A stretch of 22,362 nucleotides of DNA, taken from positions 1-22,362 of the IMG/VR virus record IMGVR_UViG_3300037343_000307. One strand, given 5' to 3'. Positions 2,193-22,194 of the stretch are shown here, piece by piece. A model generated the notes under the pieces. The model worked only from the letters and a program-made list of their open reading frames with translations. It had not been told where the DNA came from and did no database searches. This DNA is from a virus. The position numbers were made by a program, and so were the translations under genes. Each line of letters opens with the position of its first letter. Position 1 is the stretch's first letter.

Positions 2193-2818
2193 CTGCGGAT
2201 CTCCAGCAGTGGGATGGATGTGATCGATCCCAGCCGTTCGATATCGAGGGTGACATCAAGCGTGTCGGTGTCGAAGCGGACGGGCACATCGAATTCGAAG
2301 CCCGCAGTGATCGCGATGCCTGCACCCGGGGCGGCAGCGAAGGTGACGCTGCCGGTGGCGGTGTCGACGCTCCAGCCGGTCATCTGTTCGACGCCGTTCA
2401 GGGCGAGGCGGACAGAGCCTGCGACCGGCTTGGCGATGGCGCGGGTCCAGCTTTGCGCGCCGGAAGTGTAGCGCTTCAGAAGGCCGAAGGCGGTAACGGC
2501 ACCATTGCCGGTGCCGATGGGCTGGTCGGTCGGGGCCACGGCCTGCGACGGCAGACTGGACTTGTAGTCGGCCCAATCCTTGTACCGGAAGCCATGCAGG
2601 CGGCCGTTGTGCGTCTCGAAGAAGGCGACGACCAAAGCCAGATCATCGGCACGACGAATTCCATAGGCCACATCAAAGCGGCGACGCGAGTTGGCCCAGC
2701 TTGCGTTGCGTTCCTCGTCGCCGCTCGCCAGCTCGACAATCTGGGTGCGCCGTTCCGGTCCACCGCGAGCGCCACGGCTGATATTGTCGGGAAAGCGCAC
2801 CTCATGGAACGCCATCAC
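2189..2818 (-). CDS. DUF2460 distal tail protein (GTA g12-like)
   Basis: 209 residues. Family features are the opening MAFHEVRFPDNIS, the GPERRTQIVELASGDEERN stretch near 20-38, RRRFDVAYGIR, and FETHNGRLHGFRYKDWADYKS near 67-87. Together these are diagnostic of the TIGR02217/DUF2460 family of GTA and prophage distal tail proteins, which form the ring between the tail tube and the hub. The length agrees with the family. It is coupled to the tape measure gene by an ATGA overlap upstream and to the DUF2163 hub gene by another ATGA downstream. No anomaly is seen. Confidence 0.93.
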   Translation of the reverse strand: MMAFHEVRFPDNISRGARGGPERRTQIVELASGDEERNASWANSRRRFDVAYGIRRADDLALVVAFFETHNGRLHGFRYKDWADYKSSLPSQAVAPTDQPIGTGNGAVTAFGLLKRYTSGAQSWTRAIAKPVAGSVRLALNGVEQMTGWSVDTATGSVTFAAAPGAGIAITAGFEFDVPVRFDTDTLDVTLDIERLGSITSIPLLEIRR

Positions 2819-5262
2819 ATGCCCCTCCGACCGAGAGATACGGCGCGGGCGATGTCGGCCGCCACCTGCGTGCGCGATTGCCGGAAGCTTTCGGCGTCAC
2901 GGGACATGATGGTGACGGAGATATTCGGGGCGGCGCTCTGCCCTTGGCCATAGCCAGCAGCATCCCGGCGCGACAGAACCCGCTCACCCCGTTGCAGGAT
3001 CGCCGGAACCTCGTCTGGGCGCAGTCCCGCCCAGCCCCCAGAATGCATCCGTGGAGCGCCCGCGAAGGCCATGGCTGGAACCATGCGCCCCGAGCCCGGC
3101 GATCCGACCACGCCTCCGCCATGCAGGATATCCGCGAACAACCCACCCGCACCGCCCAGCGCGCCCGAGAGCGCATCGGCGATAGGCCCGAGGATGAAGC
3201 GCCGCGCCGCCAGCTTGGCCAGATCGGCGATCATCGACGTGACCAGATCGCGGAAGTCGAGCTTGCCGGTTTTGACGAAAGTAGCCACCGCGTCTTCGGC
3301 GCTTTGGAATGCACCGACCAGTGTCTGGCCGATATCGCCACCAATGTCGCGGGCCTTGGCGGCATAGTCGGCAAGCGCTGCGGTGACGGCAGCCCAACCT
3401 GTTGCCGCTGTTTGGGCAGCGGCGGCCGCTGCTGCCCCGGCATTGCGTGCGGCGGCTCCCGCACCACCGGCAGCGGCGGCAGTCTCGTCCAATTCCAGCC
3501 CGAGCGCATCCGCCGAGGCCGCAGCATCGGCCAGTGCGGCTTCAGCTTCAGTACCGGTGCCGGTCACGGCGGCGTGCAGCGCTTGCCAGCTGGTCAACGG
3601 TCGACCGGCGGCATCCGCCAGCATGCCTGCAGCCTCGCGATAGCCGTCGGCGCGGCTCCGCGCGTCATCAGCCATTGTGCCAAGACCGAGGTCAGGTGGT
3701 TCCAGATAGGTGCGCGACAGCGCGGCGGAGAAGGCATCGGCTGCGGCGGCCCCCGCTGCGGTTGCCGCACCCTCAAACGGGTTACCGATCCGCGTCAGGT
3801 CCACCGGATCCAGCGTGCCGATCCTGATGCCACCTTCACCCGTTGCCCATTCCGGCAGCAGCGCTAGCGCTGCGTTCAACCCGGTGATGAAAGTGTTGAT
3901 CCGGGTGACGACACCGTTCAGCATCGCCTCGACGCCGGAGATCAGACCGTTTGCGGCCTGAAAGGCAAAGTCACCGATGGCACCGGGCAGACTGCCCCAG
4001 ATCGCCACGGCTGCATCATAGGCCCCCTGGAAGATGGCCGCCGTCCGGTCGCCGAAGCTGATTACGCCCGCGATAGTGCTCTCAAGTGCTGTGAGACTTG
4101 CGGCCTTCAGCCCCTCCCAACCTGCCGCCATGCGAGCAAATGCACCATCGAGCGCCAGCCCCATCCGCGACCAGACCTCCTTGGCCAGATCGCCAAGCAG
4201 GCGAAACGCCTCTCCAACGCCGCCAACCCGGGTGACGAGTTGCGAGAATTGATAGACCAGCTCACCCGCGCCGACGATCAGCGCCCCGATCCCGGTGCGG
4301 ATCAGCGCCCCGCGCAGGAAGACCAGAGCGGTGGCAAGCCCACGCACCGACAGCGCCGCCGCCGCCATACCAGCCACCCAGCGCCCGGCCATGATGCCCG
4401 CGAACGTCGCGGCATAAGTGGTCAGCCGTCCGAGGTTGTCGAACAGAGCCTTGATCGCGATGCCCAGCGGCCCGGTGCGGCTGGCAATAGCGGCCATGGC
4501 GTTGGCCACTGCCTCCAACGCAGGCGCCGCAGCGACAGCAAGCTGGTTCGACAGCCCGCGCCAGATCAGGCCCAACCGTGAAATCGCGTCATTGGTGCGT
4601 TCGATCTGGTCAGCGTCAGCTTCGGAAACGACAACCCCGAAGGCAAGCACGTCCTCGGTCGCCTGGCGCAGTGTCGCAGTGTCGATCCGGGTGAACACCA
4701 GCGCCGCGCGGTCGCCGAAGAGCTGTGAGGCCACCGCCGCGCGTTCGGCTTCGGGGATAAACTGCCCCAGCGCCTCCTGAATGGCCGCGATGCGCGCATC
4801 GAGCGGCAGGCGCTGCAACTGCTCGGCCGAGAGGTGCAGGCGGTCCAAGGCATCGACCGCTGGTCCGGTTCCGGCGGCCGCCTGGCTCAGCCGCCGCGTC
4901 AGTTGTACGGTGGCTTGCTCGACCTGACCCATCGACACGCCCGCCAGATCGCCCGCCCGCTCCAGCACCTGAAGGCTGGCGACGGTCGTGCCGAGAGATT
5001 GCGCCATCTTGGCCTGCGCATCGACGGTCTGCAGGCCCGACCGGATCATCGCGACCCCCGCCGCCGCCAGCGCCGCAGTGGCAGCCGCTGCGGCAAGCGT
5101 GGCGCGGCGGGCAAAGGCGGCAACGCGCGCATTCGCCATGTCCATCTCGCGCGACAGCCGCCCGAACCCGCGCGCGCCTGCCTCGCCTACTCCTTCCAAC
5201 TCGGCGCGGACCTGGCGGCCGCCCTCCGCCACAAGGCGGACGGATACGCGTTTTTCAGCCAT
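2815..5262 (-). CDS. H: Tail tape measure protein (lambda gpH type)
   Basis: 815 residues, the longest gene here, as expected for a protein whose length sets siphophage tail length. The N-terminus carries MAEKRVSVRLVAEGG and GFGRLSREMD, then a hydrophobic stretch near 53-73. A long hydrophobic stretch covers about 283-340 and suits membrane insertion during DNA entry. Long alanine-rich, helix-prone stretches follow (about 500-640). The C-terminus has the lambda-type tape measure ending: GGVVGSPGSGRMVPAMAFAG, then MHSGGWAGLRPDEVPAILQRGERVLSR. The ATG at 5262 lies inside the last codons of the frameshifted chaperone product, whose stop is at 5255-5257. The order chaperone then tape measure is the near-universal siphophage arrangement. 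RcGTA has a much shorter protein at this position, so this part of the tail is phage-like, not GTA-like. Confidence 0.93.
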   Translation of the reverse strand: MAEKRVSVRLVAEGGRQVRAELEGVGEAGARGFGRLSREMDMANARVAAFARRATLAAAAATAALAAAGVAMIRSGLQTVDAQAKMAQSLGTTVASLQVLERAGDLAGVSMGQVEQATVQLTRRLSQAAAGTGPAVDALDRLHLSAEQLQRLPLDARIAAIQEALGQFIPEAERAAVASQLFGDRAALVFTRIDTATLRQATEDVLAFGVVVSEADADQIERTNDAISRLGLIWRGLSNQLAVAAAPALEAVANAMAAIASRTGPLGIAIKALFDNLGRLTTYAATFAGIMAGRWVAGMAAAALSVRGLATALVFLRGALIRTGIGALIVGAGELVYQFSQLVTRVGGVGEAFRLLGDLAKEVWSRMGLALDGAFARMAAGWEGLKAASLTALESTIAGVISFGDRTAAIFQGAYDAAVAIWGSLPGAIGDFAFQAANGLISGVEAMLNGVVTRINTFITGLNAALALLPEWATGEGGIRIGTLDPVDLTRIGNPFEGAATAAGAAAADAFSAALSRTYLEPPDLGLGTMADDARSRADGYREAAGMLADAAGRPLTSWQALHAAVTGTGTEAEAALADAAASADALGLELDETAAAAGGAGAAARNAGAAAAAAAQTAATGWAAVTAALADYAAKARDIGGDIGQTLVGAFQSAEDAVATFVKTGKLDFRDLVTSMIADLAKLAARRFILGPIADALSGALGGAGGLFADILHGGGVVGSPGSGRMVPAMAFAGAPRMHSGGWAGLRPDEVPAILQRGERVLSRRDAAGYGQGQSAAPNISVTIMSRDAESFRQSRTQVAADIARAVSLGRRGM

Positions 5263-5940
5263 CGCGGCTTCCTTCCATTTGTTCGTTCAATTTGCGGACC
5301 ATCACGGCCTCGATTTCTGGCAGCAGTTCGGCGGCGATCAGGGTGTTCACGCCCAGCGCCTGTGCGAGTGCGAGGGCCGCGCCCATGTCCCAGCCGAGGA
5401 CCGCGCCGGGGATCACCCGCAGCTGGCCACCAAGGCGACCGACCAGATCCCAGACCTGCCAGCCCTCCGGCGTTTGCGGCTGGTTCAGTCTTGCGGGGCA
5501 GTCGGGGCAGTTGCCCTCGCGGCCCTCGAAGGGTGGGCAGGCCGCGCAGTACCGATCGCCCCCGCCGAAGGACCACTCGGCGAGGGCGCGGAGACGTTTT
5601 TTTCCGCGTCCAGGATCAGGCCACGCGCAACGTATTGGGTCTGGAACGCCTCAAAGACCGGCCAGATTTCCAGAAGGGCATCGATGCCGTCGGGGGTGAC
5701 GGGTACGATATTGCCTGCGTCATCGCCGACACCTTCCCAATCCAGCACCGCGCGGCGGGCCACGGCCTTGGCCATGGCGAGGGCCAGTTCCTCTTGGGAA
5801 GCACCCTCAGACAGTGCCTCGATTGCCGGATCGGCGCGGGCCGAGACCATCAAGGCGGTGGTCAAAGGAGCGACCAGCAGGCGCAAACCGGGTGCCAAGT
5901 CCAGCCATTGTGGCGTGGCGGTCAGGTTCAAACGGATCAT
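5255..5940 (-). CDS. GT: Tail assembly chaperone G-T fusion made by programmed -1 frameshift
   Basis: Reading from ATG 5940 to the slippery AAC at 5598-5596, then stepping back one base so that the next codon is CGT (5596-5594), gives 115 + 113 = 228 residues ending at TGA 5257-5255. The downstream half looks like a real protein: RLRALAEWSFGGGDRYCAAC, a CxxC-x9-CxxC cysteine cluster, then EGWQVWDLVGRLGGQLRVI, GAVLGWDMGAALALAQALGV and LLPEIEAVMVRKLNEQ. This resembles a family I remember as DUF7697 from alphaproteobacterial prophages. The shifted frame has a stop upstream (TGA within TTT-GAG) and no ATG, GTG or TTG between that stop and GTG at about codon 66 after the shift, so it cannot be made whole as a separate gene. 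By lambda analogy the T-like half contacts the tape measure protein. It overlaps the tape measure start by eight bases. Confidence 0.85.
5485..5940 (-). CDS. G: Tail assembly chaperone, unshifted product (lambda gpG analogue)
   Basis: 151 residues from ATG at 5940, chosen over an in-frame ATG at 5979 because 5940 starts inside the stop of the tail tube gene (TGATG, one-base overlap), which is normal coupling. The body (MIRLNLTATPQWLDLAPGL..., LAMAKAVARRAVLDWEGVGDD, PVTPDGIDALLEIWPVFEAF) looks folded. After the slippery site at Glu113-Lys114-Asn115 the last 36 residues are low-complexity Ala/Pro/Ser/Arg, unlike a conserved domain. Known family role: the short form, in excess over the G-T fusion, coats the tape measure protein and recruits tail tube subunits. 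The gene lies between the tail tube and tape measure genes, exactly the lambda G position. The G assignment is by position and architecture; the sequence is not obviously like lambda gpG. Confidence 0.85.
   Translation of the reverse strand: MIRLNLTATPQWLDLAPGLRLLVAPLTTALMVSARADPAIEALSEGASQEELALAMAKAVARRAVLDWEGVGDDAGNIVPVTPDGIDALLEIWPVFEAFQTQYVARGLILDAEKNVSAPSPSGPSAGAIGTARPAHPSRAARATAPTAPQD
5557..5602 (-). promoter_or_regulatory. Programmed -1 ribosomal frameshift signal: slippery heptamer, spacer and hairpin
   Basis: On the minus strand, seven A's followed by C give the canonical heptamer A-AAA-AAC (5602-5596) exactly in phase with zero-frame codons GAA AAA AAC. A 7-nt spacer (5595-5589) follows, then a 12-bp stem: CGCCCTCGCCGA (5588-5577) pairs with TCGGCGGGGGCG (5568-5557) with one G-U pair and an 8-nt loop. 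A stem 5-9 nt beyond the slippery site is the standard geometry for -1 frameshifting. The element lies in the gene where dsDNA tailed phages conserve frameshifting. Confidence 0.88.
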
Positions 5941-6878
5941 CAGTATGCCTCGATATCGTTGATAAGGGTTGCGGTGCACATGCGAGCGGGGCTAGCGGCT
6001 TTCGCCGCTTGCCAGTCAAAGGTGGCCTGCACGCCCTGCGGCCCGGAAATCTCGATCCGGGGGCGCGGCAGGTAGACGGCGTGGACGGTGAAGGTGAAGC
6101 TATCCCCGGAGGGCAGGACATAGGCGAAGCTGATCTCGCAGGGATCGCCATTGATCGCCTGCGTCACCAGCGTGCTGTCGGCAAAACGAACCTCAATCCG
6201 GCCGGTCAGGGCGGCGATGGACGGGTCTGCCCCGTCTATCTTGCCGTCGCTGCGGATCGTTTCGATCCGGTCGAGGTTGTTCGCGTAGGTGATTTCGGCC
6301 GAGACCACGTTCCCGAGGGCGCTCCCGTTCCGGCTGATCGCGCCGTTGAAATGACCGAACCGCTTCAGCGCCAGTTCAGCAGGCGTGCCTGCGCTGGTCG
6401 TCGTGGCGATGGTCTCGCCTTGTGCCACCAGCCGTGCTGTGGCGGTCAGCAGGCCAGAGCGTTGCACCTGCCACGACAGCTGATCCAGCACGCAGCCGGA
6501 ATACATCGCAAAGCGCGGCACCTCAGGCATGCCGGTCTCGATCGACATCGATGGCAGGGTCCAGCCGCCCGAGCGGAACTCATGGGTGTATGGACCAGCG
6601 CCAGAGGTGATCGGATCCCCGAAGGCCGCCTTCAGCCAGAACCCGAAGGCTTCGGCATCAATCGGGACCATCACATCGCCATCAGCCGTCACCGCGTCCT
6701 TGATCGGGGCGAGAGGGTCGCGACCATAGCCAAGCAATTCGCTGTTCAGGAGCGGTTGTTCCGAGCCCAACGAAGTGCTGGCGAAGGGCATCTTCGTAAA
6801 CCCACTGACCGGCGGGGTGCCGTAAACCGTCTCATACGCGAGCGCCATCTGCGCCCGCGCGCCTTGCGCACGTGCCAT
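5940..6878 (-). CDS. V: Major tail tube protein (lambda gpV position)
   Basis: 312 residues, of the phage tail tube type I know as Phage_tube_2. Features are the start MARAQGARAQMALAYETVYGTPP, typical of this family in Rhodobacterales prophages, then FTKMPFASTSLG, LLGYGRDPLAP, GDVMVPIDAEAFGFWLKAAFGDP near 88-110, and a repeated beta-rich pattern. The C-terminal part (PSGDSFTFTVHAVYLPRPRIEI) resembles a final tube strand pair. The protein polymerises into the hexameric-ring tube around the tape measure. It has a good ribosome binding site (AGGAGAAAG about 6 bases before ATG). It directly precedes the chaperone gene with a TGATG overlap, and the tube-to-chaperone stoichiometry makes that coupling sensible. 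Confidence 0.87.
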   Translation of the reverse strand: MARAQGARAQMALAYETVYGTPPVSGFTKMPFASTSLGSEQPLLNSELLGYGRDPLAPIKDAVTADGDVMVPIDAEAFGFWLKAAFGDPITSGAGPYTHEFRSGGWTLPSMSIETGMPEVPRFAMYSGCVLDQLSWQVQRSGLLTATARLVAQGETIATTTSAGTPAELALKRFGHFNGAISRNGSALGNVVSAEITYANNLDRIETIRSDGKIDGADPSIAALTGRIEVRFADSTLVTQAINGDPCEISFAYVLPSGDSFTFTVHAVYLPRPRIEISGPQGVQATFDWQAAKAASPARMCTATLINDIEAY

Positions 6879-7339: not shown

Positions 7340-8338
7340 CTAGCCTCTGACCATTCGGACAATCCGCCCGATTTCAATTTCTTCTGGCTTGGGTTCTCCA
7401 GCCTGATGGAAGAGAATCTTGTCACTTGGGCTGATCGGAACCGTGCTGAACGGCTGGCTGAGCGATATCAATGGCGATGAACCAAGCAGCGCTGAAAAGA
7501 ACAGTGCGATCTTGTTGCGGGTGCAAAGGACCTTTACCTCCGCACCGCTCGAAATTGACTTGAGTTGATGTCGGTCCTGACCGACACGCAGTTCAAGTAG
7601 GTCGCCAGACAGAACCCTGCCTCCAAAAAGCTCAATCTTATCAAATGTCTCAAGTGATGTGATTGCTTGCACAGCGGAAACGTAGTCACGCGATGGGACC
7701 GCTTTGAAGAAACCATCTGCAGCAATCATGCTGGCTTCTTGATCGAGGCAAAGTTCCAGAACCGATATAAGGAACCGCTCAGCGAATCCCGTCGCTTTTT
7801 GGTTGCCTAAGAATTTCTCAAGCTCGTGGTTCATTACAATTTCATCGCGCTTCGCCACTTCAAGGGGAACGTTCAGATTTTTATTCCAGAAGATGACCCT
7901 GCAGACCCTCGCATTCGGTACTTTAATATTCCGAGATTCGAGAAGTGAGCAAAGGCAGTCCAGCTTATCTTTATTCTTCGCCAAAGGGTTCTCATGGGAT
8001 ATCTCATTCCTGTTGCGCCTTTCCTGTACCCACCTCTCCCCGTCAATGCGCAGCCGCCCAGACCAATTCTTAATTTCGATGGCACTGATTTGTTTTGGAG
8101 AAATAACAATTAAATCAATTTCGTAACGACCTTTTCCACTGGGTTGAATATTTCGGGGTACACGTTTCGAATGGAATATGCTGGCAGTTTTCCATGTGAG
8201 GTGATTGGTGACCATCGATCTCAATGCTTGTTCCGCATCCCGTCCCGCGGCAACTTCTTCCAGTTCGACTTCTCGACTTGCAGATACGATTTCCCGCCAG
8301 GTCTCGAGTCGTTGCGCCTTGCTGCTTTGCCTGTTCAT
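7340..8338 (-). CDS. NERD (nuclease-related) domain protein, probable cargo (moron) gene
   Basis: 332 residues. Residues about 28-130 fit a NERD domain: GRDAEQALRSM (31-41), VPRNIQPSGKGRYEIDLIVI (60-79), ISAIEIKNWSGRLRIDGERW (84-103) and NPLAKNKDKLDCL (117-129). Asp75, Glu88 and Lys90 form the D-x12-E-x-K pattern of the PD-(D/E)XK nuclease fold. The C-terminal 200 residues are not recognised. Base composition is clearly lower in GC than the flanking tail genes and codon use is mixed, suggesting recent acquisition. It starts from ATG 8338 behind a clear GAGGAAA site and sits between the gpZ-like and gpU-like genes, where lambda has nothing. A structural role is unlikely; host defence, superinfection exclusion or another lysogenic benefit is inferred only. 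Confidence 0.78.
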   Translation of the reverse strand: MNRQSSKAQRLETWREIVSASREVELEEVAAGRDAEQALRSMVTNHLTWKTASIFHSKRVPRNIQPSGKGRYEIDLIVISPKQISAIEIKNWSGRLRIDGERWVQERRNRNEISHENPLAKNKDKLDCLCSLLESRNIKVPNARVCRVIFWNKNLNVPLEVAKRDEIVMNHELEKFLGNQKATGFAERFLISVLELCLDQEASMIAADGFFKAVPSRDYVSAVQAITSLETFDKIELFGGRVLSGDLLELRVGQDRHQLKSISSGAEVKVLCTRNKIALFFSALLGSSPLISLSQPFSTVPISPSDKILFHQAGEPKPEEIEIGRIVRMVRG

Positions 8339-19103: not shown

Positions 19104-20441
19104 TCACTTTGGGACGACCGTTGCCACCCTCCCCGTTGCCACCCTCCCCGTCGCCATCTCCCACCGGCGCACAGCGACGTCGCAATAGACCGGGTCCAGC
19201 TCCATCGCGAAACAGCGCCGTCCAGCGCGTTCTGCGGCGACCAGTTGGGTGCCGGAACCGCAGAACGGCTCATAGATCAGGTCGCCGGGATCCGAAAACG
19301 CCGTCAGCATTGCCTCGACTAGTGCAACCGGGAACACGGCCGGGTGCGATCCGGCTGCTCCCAGCCCACCCTTGTGGCGCATGATGCGGAAAACCGAGTC
19401 TGGGATGCGGTGGCTTTGGATTGCGTTGCCGGTGCCGGTTTTGGCGTGGACGGTGCCGTCGGCGCCGCGCAGCCCACCGCCGCCGAGGGTTTCGCCTGCG
19501 TGCTTGGACGGGACTGTCTTGTGCGGTTTGCGGGGCGCGCGGTTGAAGTGGAAAATGAACTCGTGCGACGGGGCCAGGCGGCCGTTCCAGTCTCCCGGCA
19601 AGCCCGGGCCCTGATCCCACACATACCAGCCAAAGCGTCGCCAGCCAGAGGTGCGCATCCATTCCACCCATCCTTCCCAATAGGGCTGCCATTCGCTGTC
19701 GCGGTGCACGAGGCCGAGATTGACCAACAGCTGTGCGTCGGTGGTGACCGGTGCCGCGGCGAACACGCCCTGCATCAGCGCATCCCAATCGCCGATCTTT
19801 TCCTTTGCCGCGCCGTAATCGCGCTGCTGGGCATAGGGCGGCGAAGTGAACATCAGCGTCGTTTGATCGCCCTGCATCAGCTTGGCCACGGCGGCGGCAT
19901 CAGTCGCGTCGCCGCAGCAAAGCCGATGCTTGCCCAGCGCCCAGATATCGCCCGGCTTGGTGATGGGCTCAGTAGGTGGTTCGGGGATCGCATCGGCGTC
20001 GTCGTCGGAAATCGCCGGGCGGTCGTCGGCGTCAGCCAGCAGGGCGTCCAGTTCATCCTCGGGGATGCCAATCAGCCCGAGGTCGAAATCCTCGGCCAGC
20101 AGCGCCTGCAATTCTTGCAGCAGCAGTGCCTCATCCCAGCCACCCAGCTCGGTAAGCTTGTTGTCAGCGATCCGGTAAGCCCGGCGCTGCGCTTCGGTCA
20201 GATGACCGAGCACGATGACAGGCGCTTCCGTCAGCCCTAGGTGAGCGGCGGCCAGGATGCGACCGTGCCCCGCAATCAACTCGCCGTCGGCCGCCACCAG
20301 CACCGGCACGGTCCAGCCGAACTCGGCCATGCTGGCGGCGATCTTGGCGACTTGGTCGGCGTCGTGGGTCTTGGCGTTGCGGGCGTAGGGCTTCAGACGG
20401 GCCAGGGGCCAGTGTTCGATTTGGCCGGGCGGCATGATCAT
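19104..20441 (-). CDS. DNA methyltransferase with ParB-like N-terminal domain, TSPPY type (predicted m4C)
   Basis: 445 residues from ATG 20441, chosen since it overlaps the upstream stop as ATGA. Domain 1 (about 5-95) is ParB/Srx-like: RLKPYARNAKTH, VAKIAASMAEFGWTVPVLV, DGELIAGHGRILAA, RRAYRIADNKLTELG. Domain 2 is the catalytic beta-type methyltransferase: motif IV TSPPY (199-203) precedes motif I EPFCGSGTQ (391-399). Motif TSPPY is most often seen in N4-cytosine enzymes, motif I in AdoMet binding. The end carries repeated GRVAT units. It is the last gene of a three-gene unit with an unknown gene and a second, DPPY-type methyltransferase. No restriction endonuclease is visible nearby, so a protective or regulatory orphan methylase is inferred. 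Confidence 0.92.
   Translation of the reverse strand: MIMPPGQIEHWPLARLKPYARNAKTHDADQVAKIAASMAEFGWTVPVLVAADGELIAGHGRILAAAHLGLTEAPVIVLGHLTEAQRRAYRIADNKLTELGGWDEALLLQELQALLAEDFDLGLIGIPEDELDALLADADDRPAISDDDADAIPEPPTEPITKPGDIWALGKHRLCCGDATDAAAVAKLMQGDQTTLMFTSPPYAQQRDYGAAKEKIGDWDALMQGVFAAAPVTTDAQLLVNLGLVHRDSEWQPYWEGWVEWMRTSGWRRFGWYVWDQGPGLPGDWNGRLAPSHEFIFHFNRAPRKPHKTVPSKHAGETLGGGGLRGADGTVHAKTGTGNAIQSHRIPDSVFRIMRHKGGLGAAGSHPAVFPVALVEAMLTAFSDPGDLIYEPFCGSGTQLVAAERAGRRCFAMELDPVYCDVAVRRWEMATGRVATGRVATVVPK
19121..19150. repeat. 15-bp tandem repeat in the 3' end of the methyltransferase gene
   Basis: TTGCCACCCTCCCCG at 19121-19135 repeats exactly at 19136-19150, followed by a degenerate third copy (19151 onward). 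On the minus strand it encodes repeated Thr-Gly-Arg-Val-Ala. As a multiple of three it keeps the frame, so copy-number change would only lengthen the C-terminus. Confidence 0.85.
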
Positions 20442-20938
20442 GACGCAGGTCCTGCCAGAGGCCTGCAAACGACCAGCGTTGTTCTGCCGGGGAGATACCA
20501 GCTCGGGAAGTCCTCGGGCCAGTTGACACGAAGCCCATAGATTGCCGCCGTGTCCTCAGTGTCCTGACGCTTCGCTGCATCGAAAGTGCCGTAGAGATGC
20601 GCGGCCACTGCGGCGGCTTTCCTGTCCTTGCGGTAGAAATAGCCGTGATCCACAAGCGCGCGCGGCCAGGGATCGACGTTATAGCCGCGCCCATTGAACA
20701 ACCCACGCCTCGCCAGAACCGAAGGCGAGAAGTCCGATCTGGACAGATGCCAGCCATGGCGTTCGCCGAACACCACGGCCAGTCGCTGGCGCGTGGCGTG
20801 CAGATCCTGTTGCAGGGCGTTGCTCCGGGGATAGCGTTGCGCGTCGCGCAGCTTTTCCTGGAACTCGGTCACTGTGTTGACAAGAGCGGCAACCTCGTCA
20901 CCGTGCAAATCGGCGGGCTGCATGTGGGGCGCGTTCAT
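20438..20938 (-). CDS. Hypothetical protein between two methyltransferases
   Basis: 166 residues from ATG 20938. A longer frame to 21310 exists, but its first 124 residues lie on the second methyltransferase and read as Arg/Gly/His-rich noise; 20938 also makes an ATGA overlap. Features are a helical start (DEVAALVNTVTEFQEKLRDAQRYPRSNALQQDLHATRQRL), then GERHGWHLSRSDF, LFNGRGYNV and a Tyr/Phe/Arg-rich middle (DHGYFYRKDRKAAAVAAHLY), ending with WPEDFPSWYLPGRTTLVVCRP. I do not recognise a family. Both boundaries overlap the methyltransferases by four bases, so it is translated with them and may be a partner protein. No nuclease motif is evident. Confidence 0.78.
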   Translation of the reverse strand: MNAPHMQPADLHGDEVAALVNTVTEFQEKLRDAQRYPRSNALQQDLHATRQRLAVVFGERHGWHLSRSDFSPSVLARRGLFNGRGYNVDPWPRALVDHGYFYRKDRKAAAVAAHLYGTFDAAKRQDTEDTAAIYGLRVNWPEDFPSWYLPGRTTLVVCRPLAGPAS

Positions 20939-22194
20939 GCTGCCAGTCTCCTCGACTTGGTGGCCGCGAAGGTTTCGCCGGTTTCCGCCAGCACAGCCTC
21001 CTGACCCGTGAAGGATTGCCAGCGCGCGATGGCCACATCGACATAGGCCGGGTTCAACTCGATCCCGAAGCACACCCGACTTGTGGTTTCGGCCGCGATC
21101 AGCGTGGTGCCGGATCCCATGAAGGGTTCGAACACCGCCTGACCCGGGCTGGAATTGTTCAGCATCGGGCGGCGCATGCATTCGACCGGCTTCTGGGTGC
21201 CATGGACGGTTGCCGCGTCCTGATCCTTGCCGGAGATATGCCATAGCGTCGTCTGCTTGCGATCTCCGGCCCAGTGGCCCTTGCCGGTCTTCTTGACGGC
21301 ATACCAGCAAGGTTCATGTTGCCAGTGATAGTCGCCGCGGCTGAGGACGAGGCGGTCCTTGGCCCAGATGATCTGCGACCGTACGGCGAAACCCGCCGCC
21401 AGCAGGCTCTCGGCGACGGTCGTGGCATGCAGTGCGCCATGCCAGACATAGGCGACATCGCCGGGGAACAGCGCCCAAGCCTCGCGCCAGTCGGCCCGGT
21501 CGTCGTTCAGCACGCGGCCTATGCGCTTGGTTTTGGCGGCCCCCGCCTGGTTGCGCCAAGACGGGTCATATTCCACGCCGTAAGGCGGGTCGGTCACCAT
21601 CAGCAGCGGCTTCACTTCGCCAAGAAGGTGCCCGACCACGTCCGCCGAGGTGCTGTCGCCGCAGATCAGCCGGTGCGACCCGAGTTGCCAGATGTCGCCC
21701 GCCACCGACACCGGCGTGACCGGAGGTTCCGGAATATCATCCTCGCCTTCGACCGCGCCGCCTTCCAGCTGATCGGGATCGCGCAATAAGGCATCCAGAT
21801 CCTCATCGGTGATGCCCAGCAGCGTCAGGTCGAAATCCTCGGCCAGCAGCCCCGCGATCTCGTCGCGCAACATCGCCTCGTCCCATTCGCCCAACTCGGT
21901 CAGTTTATTGTCGGCGATGCGGTACGCCCGGCGCTCCGCCTCGTCGAGGTGGCTGAGGCGGATCACCGGCACGTCCTTCAACCCGAGCATCGCAGCCGCC
22001 AGCACCCGGCCATGCCCGGCAATCAGCTCGCCGTCGTCGGCCACCATGCAGGGCACGGTCCAGCCGAACTTCGCCATGCTTGCTGCGATCTTGGCGACCT
22101 GGTCGGTGCCGTGGATCTTGGCGTTGCGGGCGTAGGGGCGCAGCCGGTCAATCGGCCACGTCTCGATCTGGCTCGGTGCAAAGACCAGGTCCAT
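20935..22194 (-). CDS. DNA methyltransferase with ParB-like N-terminal domain, DPPY type (predicted m6A)
   Basis: 419 residues. The N-terminal ParB-like domain (about 10-105: RLRPYARNAKIHG, DQVAKIAASMAKFGWTVP, DDGELIAGHGRVLAAA, RRAYRIADNKLTELGEWDEA) is very similar to that in the TSPPY-type gene. The catalytic part has motif IV TDPPYGVEYDP (DPPY 202-205) and motif I EPFMGSGTT (356-364), plus ELNPAYVDVAIARW at the end: an N6-adenine-type beta-class methyltransferase. The gene precedes the small unknown gene with a four-base overlap. Upstream 168 bases are non-coding; the ribosome site (GAGA) is weak. Likely role: modification of phage DNA to resist host restriction, or gene control; target sequence unknown. 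Confidence 0.93.
   Translation of the reverse strand: MDLVFAPSQIETWPIDRLRPYARNAKIHGTDQVAKIAASMAKFGWTVPCMVADDGELIAGHGRVLAAAMLGLKDVPVIRLSHLDEAERRAYRIADNKLTELGEWDEAMLRDEIAGLLAEDFDLTLLGITDEDLDALLRDPDQLEGGAVEGEDDIPEPPVTPVSVAGDIWQLGSHRLICGDSTSADVVGHLLGEVKPLLMVTDPPYGVEYDPSWRNQAGAAKTKRIGRVLNDDRADWREAWALFPGDVAYVWHGALHATTVAESLLAAGFAVRSQIIWAKDRLVLSRGDYHWQHEPCWYAVKKTGKGHWAGDRKQTTLWHISGKDQDAATVHGTQKPVECMRRPMLNNSSPGQAVFEPFMGSGTTLIAAETTSRVCFGIELNPAYVDVAIARWQSFTGQEAVLAETGETFAATKSRRLAA

Follow-up and report, generated by a model that had tools for sequence, protein, structure and literature searches.

A probable programmed -1 ribosomal frameshift of the lambda G/G-T kind in a phage tail assembly chaperone gene, with a slippery heptamer and a hairpin conserved among relatives

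Results and discussion

Frameshift element and gene neighborhood

We found, on the minus strand of a 22,362-base virus record (called the window below), that the gene of tail assembly chaperone G contains an element that very probably directs programmed -1 ribosomal frameshifting like that of lambda G/G-T. G runs from ATG 5940 to the stop at 5485. After the slippery heptamer, the -1 frame continues for 113 codons, termed the T domain here, to a stop at 5257-5255. An earlier sequence-only reading had proposed A-AAA-AAC in phase, a 7-nt spacer, a 12-bp stem with one G-U pair and an 8-nt loop, and every part of this anatomy was borne out, although the strand had not been stated. The same reading placed the end of the -1 frame inside the start of the tape measure gene, which agrees with the tape measure ATG at 5262: this gene overlaps the end of T, and the T stop lies within it. 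The predicted sizes of the two products, 151 and 228 residues for G and G-T, were also confirmed as open reading frames; the 228-residue protein itself would be made only if ribosomes change frame, as the arrangement of the gene leads us to expect. Coordinates are listed in Table 1.

Table 1. Coordinates of the frameshift element, its reading frames and the flanking tail genes in the window
Feature	Positions	Strand	Support
Slippery heptamer A_AAA_AAC (0-frame GAA AAA AAC)	5596..5602	-	190/209 homologous sites identical
7-nt spacer GTCTCCG	5589..5595	-	no gaps among 33 same-clade relatives
Stimulatory hairpin, 12-bp stem with one U-G pair, 8-nt loop	5557..5588	-	folding, covariation, synonymous recoding
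Tail assembly chaperone G, 0-frame, 151 aa	5485..5940	-	phrog_313 'Tail assembly chaperone', E 5.5e-26
T domain, -1 frame, 113 aa after the heptamer, and stop	5255..5596	-	AlphaFold2 mean pLDDT 87.7
C-terminal T fragment expected from gene calling at internal GTG 5416	5258..5416	-	roughly coincides with DUF7697/PHROG 11212
Tail tube protein (Phage_tube_2), immediately upstream of G	5940..6878	-	PF18906, E 4.4e-58
Tape measure protein, immediately downstream of T	2815..5262	-	PF09718 Tape_meas_lam_C, E 3.7e-23; phrog_8462

The window carries a siphovirus-like structural operon on the minus strand, with genes for terminase (GpA_ATPase and GpA_nuclease), portal (lambda family), S49 peptidase, capsid E, DUF6441, tail terminator (phrog_4204), tail tube, chaperone, lambda-type tape measure, DUF2460, baseplate hub protein (Phage_phiJL001_Gp84_N) and NlpC/P60. 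The chaperone gene thus has the location expected for genes of the lambda G/G-T type, between tail tube and tape measure. Since the nearest homologues are mostly from Rhodobacteraceae and related alphaproteobacteria, judging from these sequences the host most likely belongs to the same group.

The tail operon also contains a NERD-domain gene (7343-8338, minus; Pfam 6.9e-15), located between the genes for DUF6441 and the tail terminator and similar to the N-terminal part of the PglW/MkoA defence proteins of PADLOC. Compared with a GC content of 0.64 for the whole window, this gene has 0.49, and the records of 16 relatives did not show it; it has likely been acquired recently, as cargo or for defence. 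Two N6/N4 DNA methyltransferase genes (19107-20468 and 20938-22194, minus) are located near each other upstream of the structural operon, and both have the same best PADLOC model, PDLC03229.

The heptamer (5602-5596) has the form X_XXY_YYZ, is in phase with G and leads into T. The 5' arm of the stem, CGCCCTCGCCGA (5588-5577, minus), the loop GTGGTCCT (5576-5569, minus) and the 3' arm TCGGCGGGGGCG (5568-5557, minus) follow at a distance within the 5-9 nt that is standard for such elements (PMC5009743). Folding of the minus strand gave -30.4 kcal/mol (z -3.2 against dinucleotide shuffles), and an equally stable fold was obtained in one of 200 shuffles. By itself AAAAAAC is unremarkable, with 0.6 occurrences expected per window and at least one in 47% of shuffles; what goes beyond chance is the phase of the heptamer, its location in the chaperone gene, the hairpin at the standard spacing, and conservation in more than 200 relatives. 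The possibility that the hairpin is an intrinsic terminator of the opposite strand was rejected, since a scan of both strands found no terminator-like site at the element.

Conservation among relatives

With the T protein as query, viral contigs and genomes each gave 80 loci, and three distant queries added 42 more; a search with the fusion gave 15 deposited phage records, seven of which were retrieved. At the homologous codon of the 209 sites, which are partly redundant (for example, L006 and L090 are identical), we observed A_AAA_AAC in 190, G_GGA_AAC in 14 and A_AAA_AAA in two, so that the heptamer is canonical in 206. The other three have AGAAAAC (L079), AAAGAAC (L132, in a partly masked stretch) and GGGACAC (L209). 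After removal of near-duplicates, 54 loci remained, about 44 with A6C, nine with GGGAAAC and one with A7.

In nearly all relatives a stable hairpin begins 5-9 nt 3' of the heptamer. When 600 nt of each of the 54 non-redundant loci were folded in 36-nt windows, a single sharp minimum appeared at +5 after the heptamer (mean energy -23.0, against -10.1 overall; z -6.5). In the clade of the window (33 sequences, no gaps), 95.3% of the pair cells are standard and three pairs show double changes; no slid register of the stem exceeded 57% pairing, and RNAalifold recovered the identical stem independently. A single gapless 12-bp register applied to all 54 loci was rejected, with only 80% of cells paired. 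The poor fit arises because in a second clade (L088, L182-L210), which has a 5-nt spacer, the pairing register begins 2 nt earlier, and the signal is clear once the clades are separated.

Synonymous recoding of the -1 frame gave a mean energy of -14.9, so that the observed hairpins, at -23.3, are more stable than recoding predicts (p <= 0.05 in 48 of the 54 loci); part of the excess may reflect dual coding, as this control leaves the 0-frame protein free to vary. Synonymous variation is 0.17 in the first 10 codons of T as compared with 0.44-0.61 in codons 41-80, and dual coding could likewise contribute to this signal. In L171-L174, the G stop comes one codon past the heptamer and the heptamer is kept; of these, L172 and L174 retain strong hairpins (z -5.6 and -4.6), and that of L171 is weaker.

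Products of the two frames

A match to phrog_313 relates G to known tail assembly chaperones, and 39 of 51 relatives share it. AlphaFold2 predicted an ordered domain for residues 1-115 of G (pLDDT over 90 across most of residues 11-110) that ends at the Asn codon of the heptamer, followed by a disordered 0-frame tail of 36 residues (116-151; pLDDT below 50 in much of it). This tail looks dispensable, because it is disordered and is nearly absent in L171-L174. For the G model, the top row of a second structural search was the HK97 chaperone 2ob9 (Z 4.6, rmsd 5.4, 93 residues aligned), a low Z, so that the likeness between the modelled G and 2ob9 is suggestive only.

The T domain is conserved in the 54 non-redundant loci. 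Among viral protein structures, the best named matches of its model came from other siphophages and were 'tape measure chaperones' (E 0.04-0.3, probability 0.97-0.99), which suggests that T is homologous to these proteins; the second structural search gave only Z 3.2 or less for T. Among solved structures, no credible relative of either G or T emerged from a sequence search, and neither model had a significant Foldseek match in the PDB, an absence that proves nothing.

Family models cover T incompletely. PF24752 (DUF7697) matches only residues 61-111, the C-terminal half (E 1.1e-28; 99.3 bits against a gathering score of 27). In the alignment of T (n=54), DUF7697 matches 53 sequences and PHROG 11212 matches 48, the match for the T of the window starting at about residue 60. 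Both families were probably built from open reading frames called at internal starts. The half they miss holds the residues that are invariant in all 54 sequences: R1, W8, G11, G13, C17, C20, C30 and C33. The four cysteines (about 5550-5497 of the window, minus) are invariant among relatives down to 30% identity, and their CxxC...CxxC pattern looks like a putative zinc site. Near them the AlphaFold2 prediction is unsure (pLDDT below 50 at residues 23-26). No mention of DUF7697 was found in a literature search.

These truncated models touch on one alternative, in which T, or only its last 53 residues (DUF7697), would be translated as a separate protein from GTG 5416 or ATG 5386 with no frameshift. 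GTG 5416 has a Shine-Dalgarno-like match (-6.0) similar to those of the G start (-5.9) and the tape measure start (-5.5), two deposited phages are annotated with two coding sequences, and DUF7697 and PHROG 11212 begin there. However, a product initiated in this way would omit the first 60 residues of T, including the invariant R, W and G and the four cysteines, and would leave both the heptamer and the hairpin unexplained. The -1 frame around the site is open for 131 codons, beginning after a stop at 5653, and contains no ATG, GTG or TTG before GTG 5416 (T residue 61). Across the loci, no T start is present between the heptamer and T residue 30, and the first -1-frame start shifts among relatives from codon 30 to codon 78. 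An independent start for the second frame, which the sequence-only reading had named as evidence against frameshifting, is thus not found: no conserved start serves the whole of T. We regard separate initiation in place of frameshifting as very unlikely; an internally initiated T fragment may still be a minor extra product.

Ribosomal slippage and its alternatives

The window and most relatives have a run of seven A, on which RNA polymerase could add an A, so that some mRNAs would encode the fusion in frame. This transcriptional slippage would require the homopolymer to be kept in homologues, yet the 14 relatives with GGGAAAC, which have no slippable homopolymer, retain the same frames and the hairpin. 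The hairpin at 5-9 nt and the codon phasing are, moreover, features of ribosomal frameshifting. Tandem -1 re-pairing of tRNAs remains possible on both A6C and GGGAAAC while the homopolymer for polymerase slippage is gone from the latter, and thus their interchange favors ribosomal slippage. In our reading of these sequences, the switching between A_AAA_AAC and G_GGA_AAC is the strongest single argument for ribosomal (tandem tRNA) slippage, and we give transcriptional slippage only a very small chance.

That the true run is A8, and G-T an ordinary open reading frame broken by a homopolymer sequencing or assembly error, is next to impossible and, as far as the compared sequences go, already refuted as a general explanation: A8 does occur in Roseisalinus antarcticus (L006 = L090) and L264, where it would fuse the G and T frames outright, but a heptamer-independent survey, whose search pattern was confined to sequence 3' of the slippery A run, yielded 113 distinct sites, 111 of them with exactly GAAAAAAAC, drawn from numerous separate metagenomes and isolates, and in the GGGAAAC relatives the frames are broken in the same way with no long run present. 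The sequence-only reading had named raw reads with eight A's in the run, or homologues with continuous frames, as observations that would count against it; apart from A8 in these two genomes, the frames of the homologues are not continuous. An A6 run was seen in L168 (a MAG contig with 2.9x coverage) and L309, and damaged heptamers in L079 and L209. The A8, A6 and damaged-heptamer sites could reflect errors, prophage decay or genuine variation.

A programmed -1 frameshift, as the sequence-only reading had proposed for G and T, is therefore supported by the conserved heptamer and hairpin, by covariation, and by homologues annotated as joined coding sequences. On this mechanism, ribosomes translating G would reach GAA AAA AAC while the hairpin sits at the mRNA entrance. 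In a minority of them, the P- and A-site tRNAs would re-pair one base back (AAA/AAA), and these ribosomes would read on through CGT CTC CGC into T to give the 228-residue G-T, the others producing G of 151 residues. If the proteins act as in lambda, the tape measure protein would be coated by a large number of G and a small number of G-T molecules, and T would recruit the tail tube protein.

Both A_AAA_AAC and G_GGA_AAC are heptamers of low efficiency in E. coli (PMC4066793). The weak slippage on A_AAA_AAC counts against frameshifting, yet it suits a high ratio of G to G-T; lambda needs roughly 30 G per G-T (PMC5009743), and for fs-genes resembling an HK97 protein a frameshifting level of 6-7% was measured (PMC3711429). 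By comparison with these systems, a few per cent of ribosomes may shift here. A_AAA_AAG, which is far more shift-prone than A_AAA_AAC in E. coli (PMC5009743), was never seen at the homologous heptamer sites. Its absence need not mean selection on the rate of frameshifting, because the invariant Arg1 of T would change (CGN to GGN).

Taken as a whole, we consider it about an even chance that T represents a Cys4 domain of tail chaperones in its own right, probably zinc-binding, made only by frameshifting and widespread in alphaproteobacterial phages, that its first half was missed through truncated open reading frames, and that the frameshift is tuned by weak heptamers (A_AAA_AAC or G_GGA_AAC) combined with a strong hairpin.

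Annotation and significance

The sequence-only reading had also held that the second product is absent from annotation. This was true only in part: the pair is annotated as a joined coding sequence in isolated Rhodobacter phages, and the C-terminal half of T is modelled by DUF7697 and PHROG 11212, but the first 60 residues of T are missed by the models. In L084 and L085 (phages named for Nostoc, PP438413, and Synechococcus, OP858991), T is annotated from an internal start, with no fusion. The chaperone regions of these two records are identical and of alphaproteobacterial type, and their stated hosts may represent contaminated cultures. Two plasmid records say nothing about current annotation practice, because they are unannotated over the site.

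DUF7697 and PHROG 11212 thus appear to describe half of a frameshift-encoded tail chaperone, and recognition of this would allow many alphaproteobacterial prophages to be reannotated correctly. The relatives also provide an unusually complete natural series of bacterial -1 elements, with interchangeable heptamers at one codon position, a covarying hairpin, and variants with an early 0-frame stop or fused frames; the series would be suitable for testing how the ratio of G to G-T depends on the heptamer and the hairpin.

Comparison with known systems

Frameshifting in tail chaperone genes is classical, and the element described here is not novel in kind. The lambda G/G-T frameshift is said to have been described by Levin in 1993 and by Xu, Hendrix and Duda in 2004. 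As in lambda, the genes lie between those of the tail tube and tape measure proteins, the -1 shift occurs near the end of G at an X_XXY_YYZ heptamer, and T has no upstream start of its own. Unlike lambda, the heptamer here is A_AAA_AAC, a strong simple hairpin lies 7 nt downstream, and T has a conserved Cys4 motif. With the HK97 tail assembly chaperone, G has a weak structural match (2ob9) but no detected sequence similarity.

For the Acinetobacter phage Loki, AAAAAAC adjoining the gp12 stop was proposed as the tail chaperone slip site of gp12/gp13 (PMC5313236). The Loki chaperone is among the structural matches of T (TMq 0.63, E 6.8), a comparison that shows no sequence homology, and unlike G of the window it has no long 0-frame tail past the heptamer. 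Homologous G and T in the same gene order are present in the Rhodobacter capsulatus phages RcKai, RcFrancesLouise and RcKemmy (phages of PMC8601537 and later deposits), whose pair is about 45-46% identical to the fusion of the window over 98% of its length and was deposited as a joined coding sequence plus a short one. These phages share the 7-nt spacer and the hairpin, but their heptamer is G_GGA_AAC and their hairpin has an uninterrupted outer stem of 9 bp.
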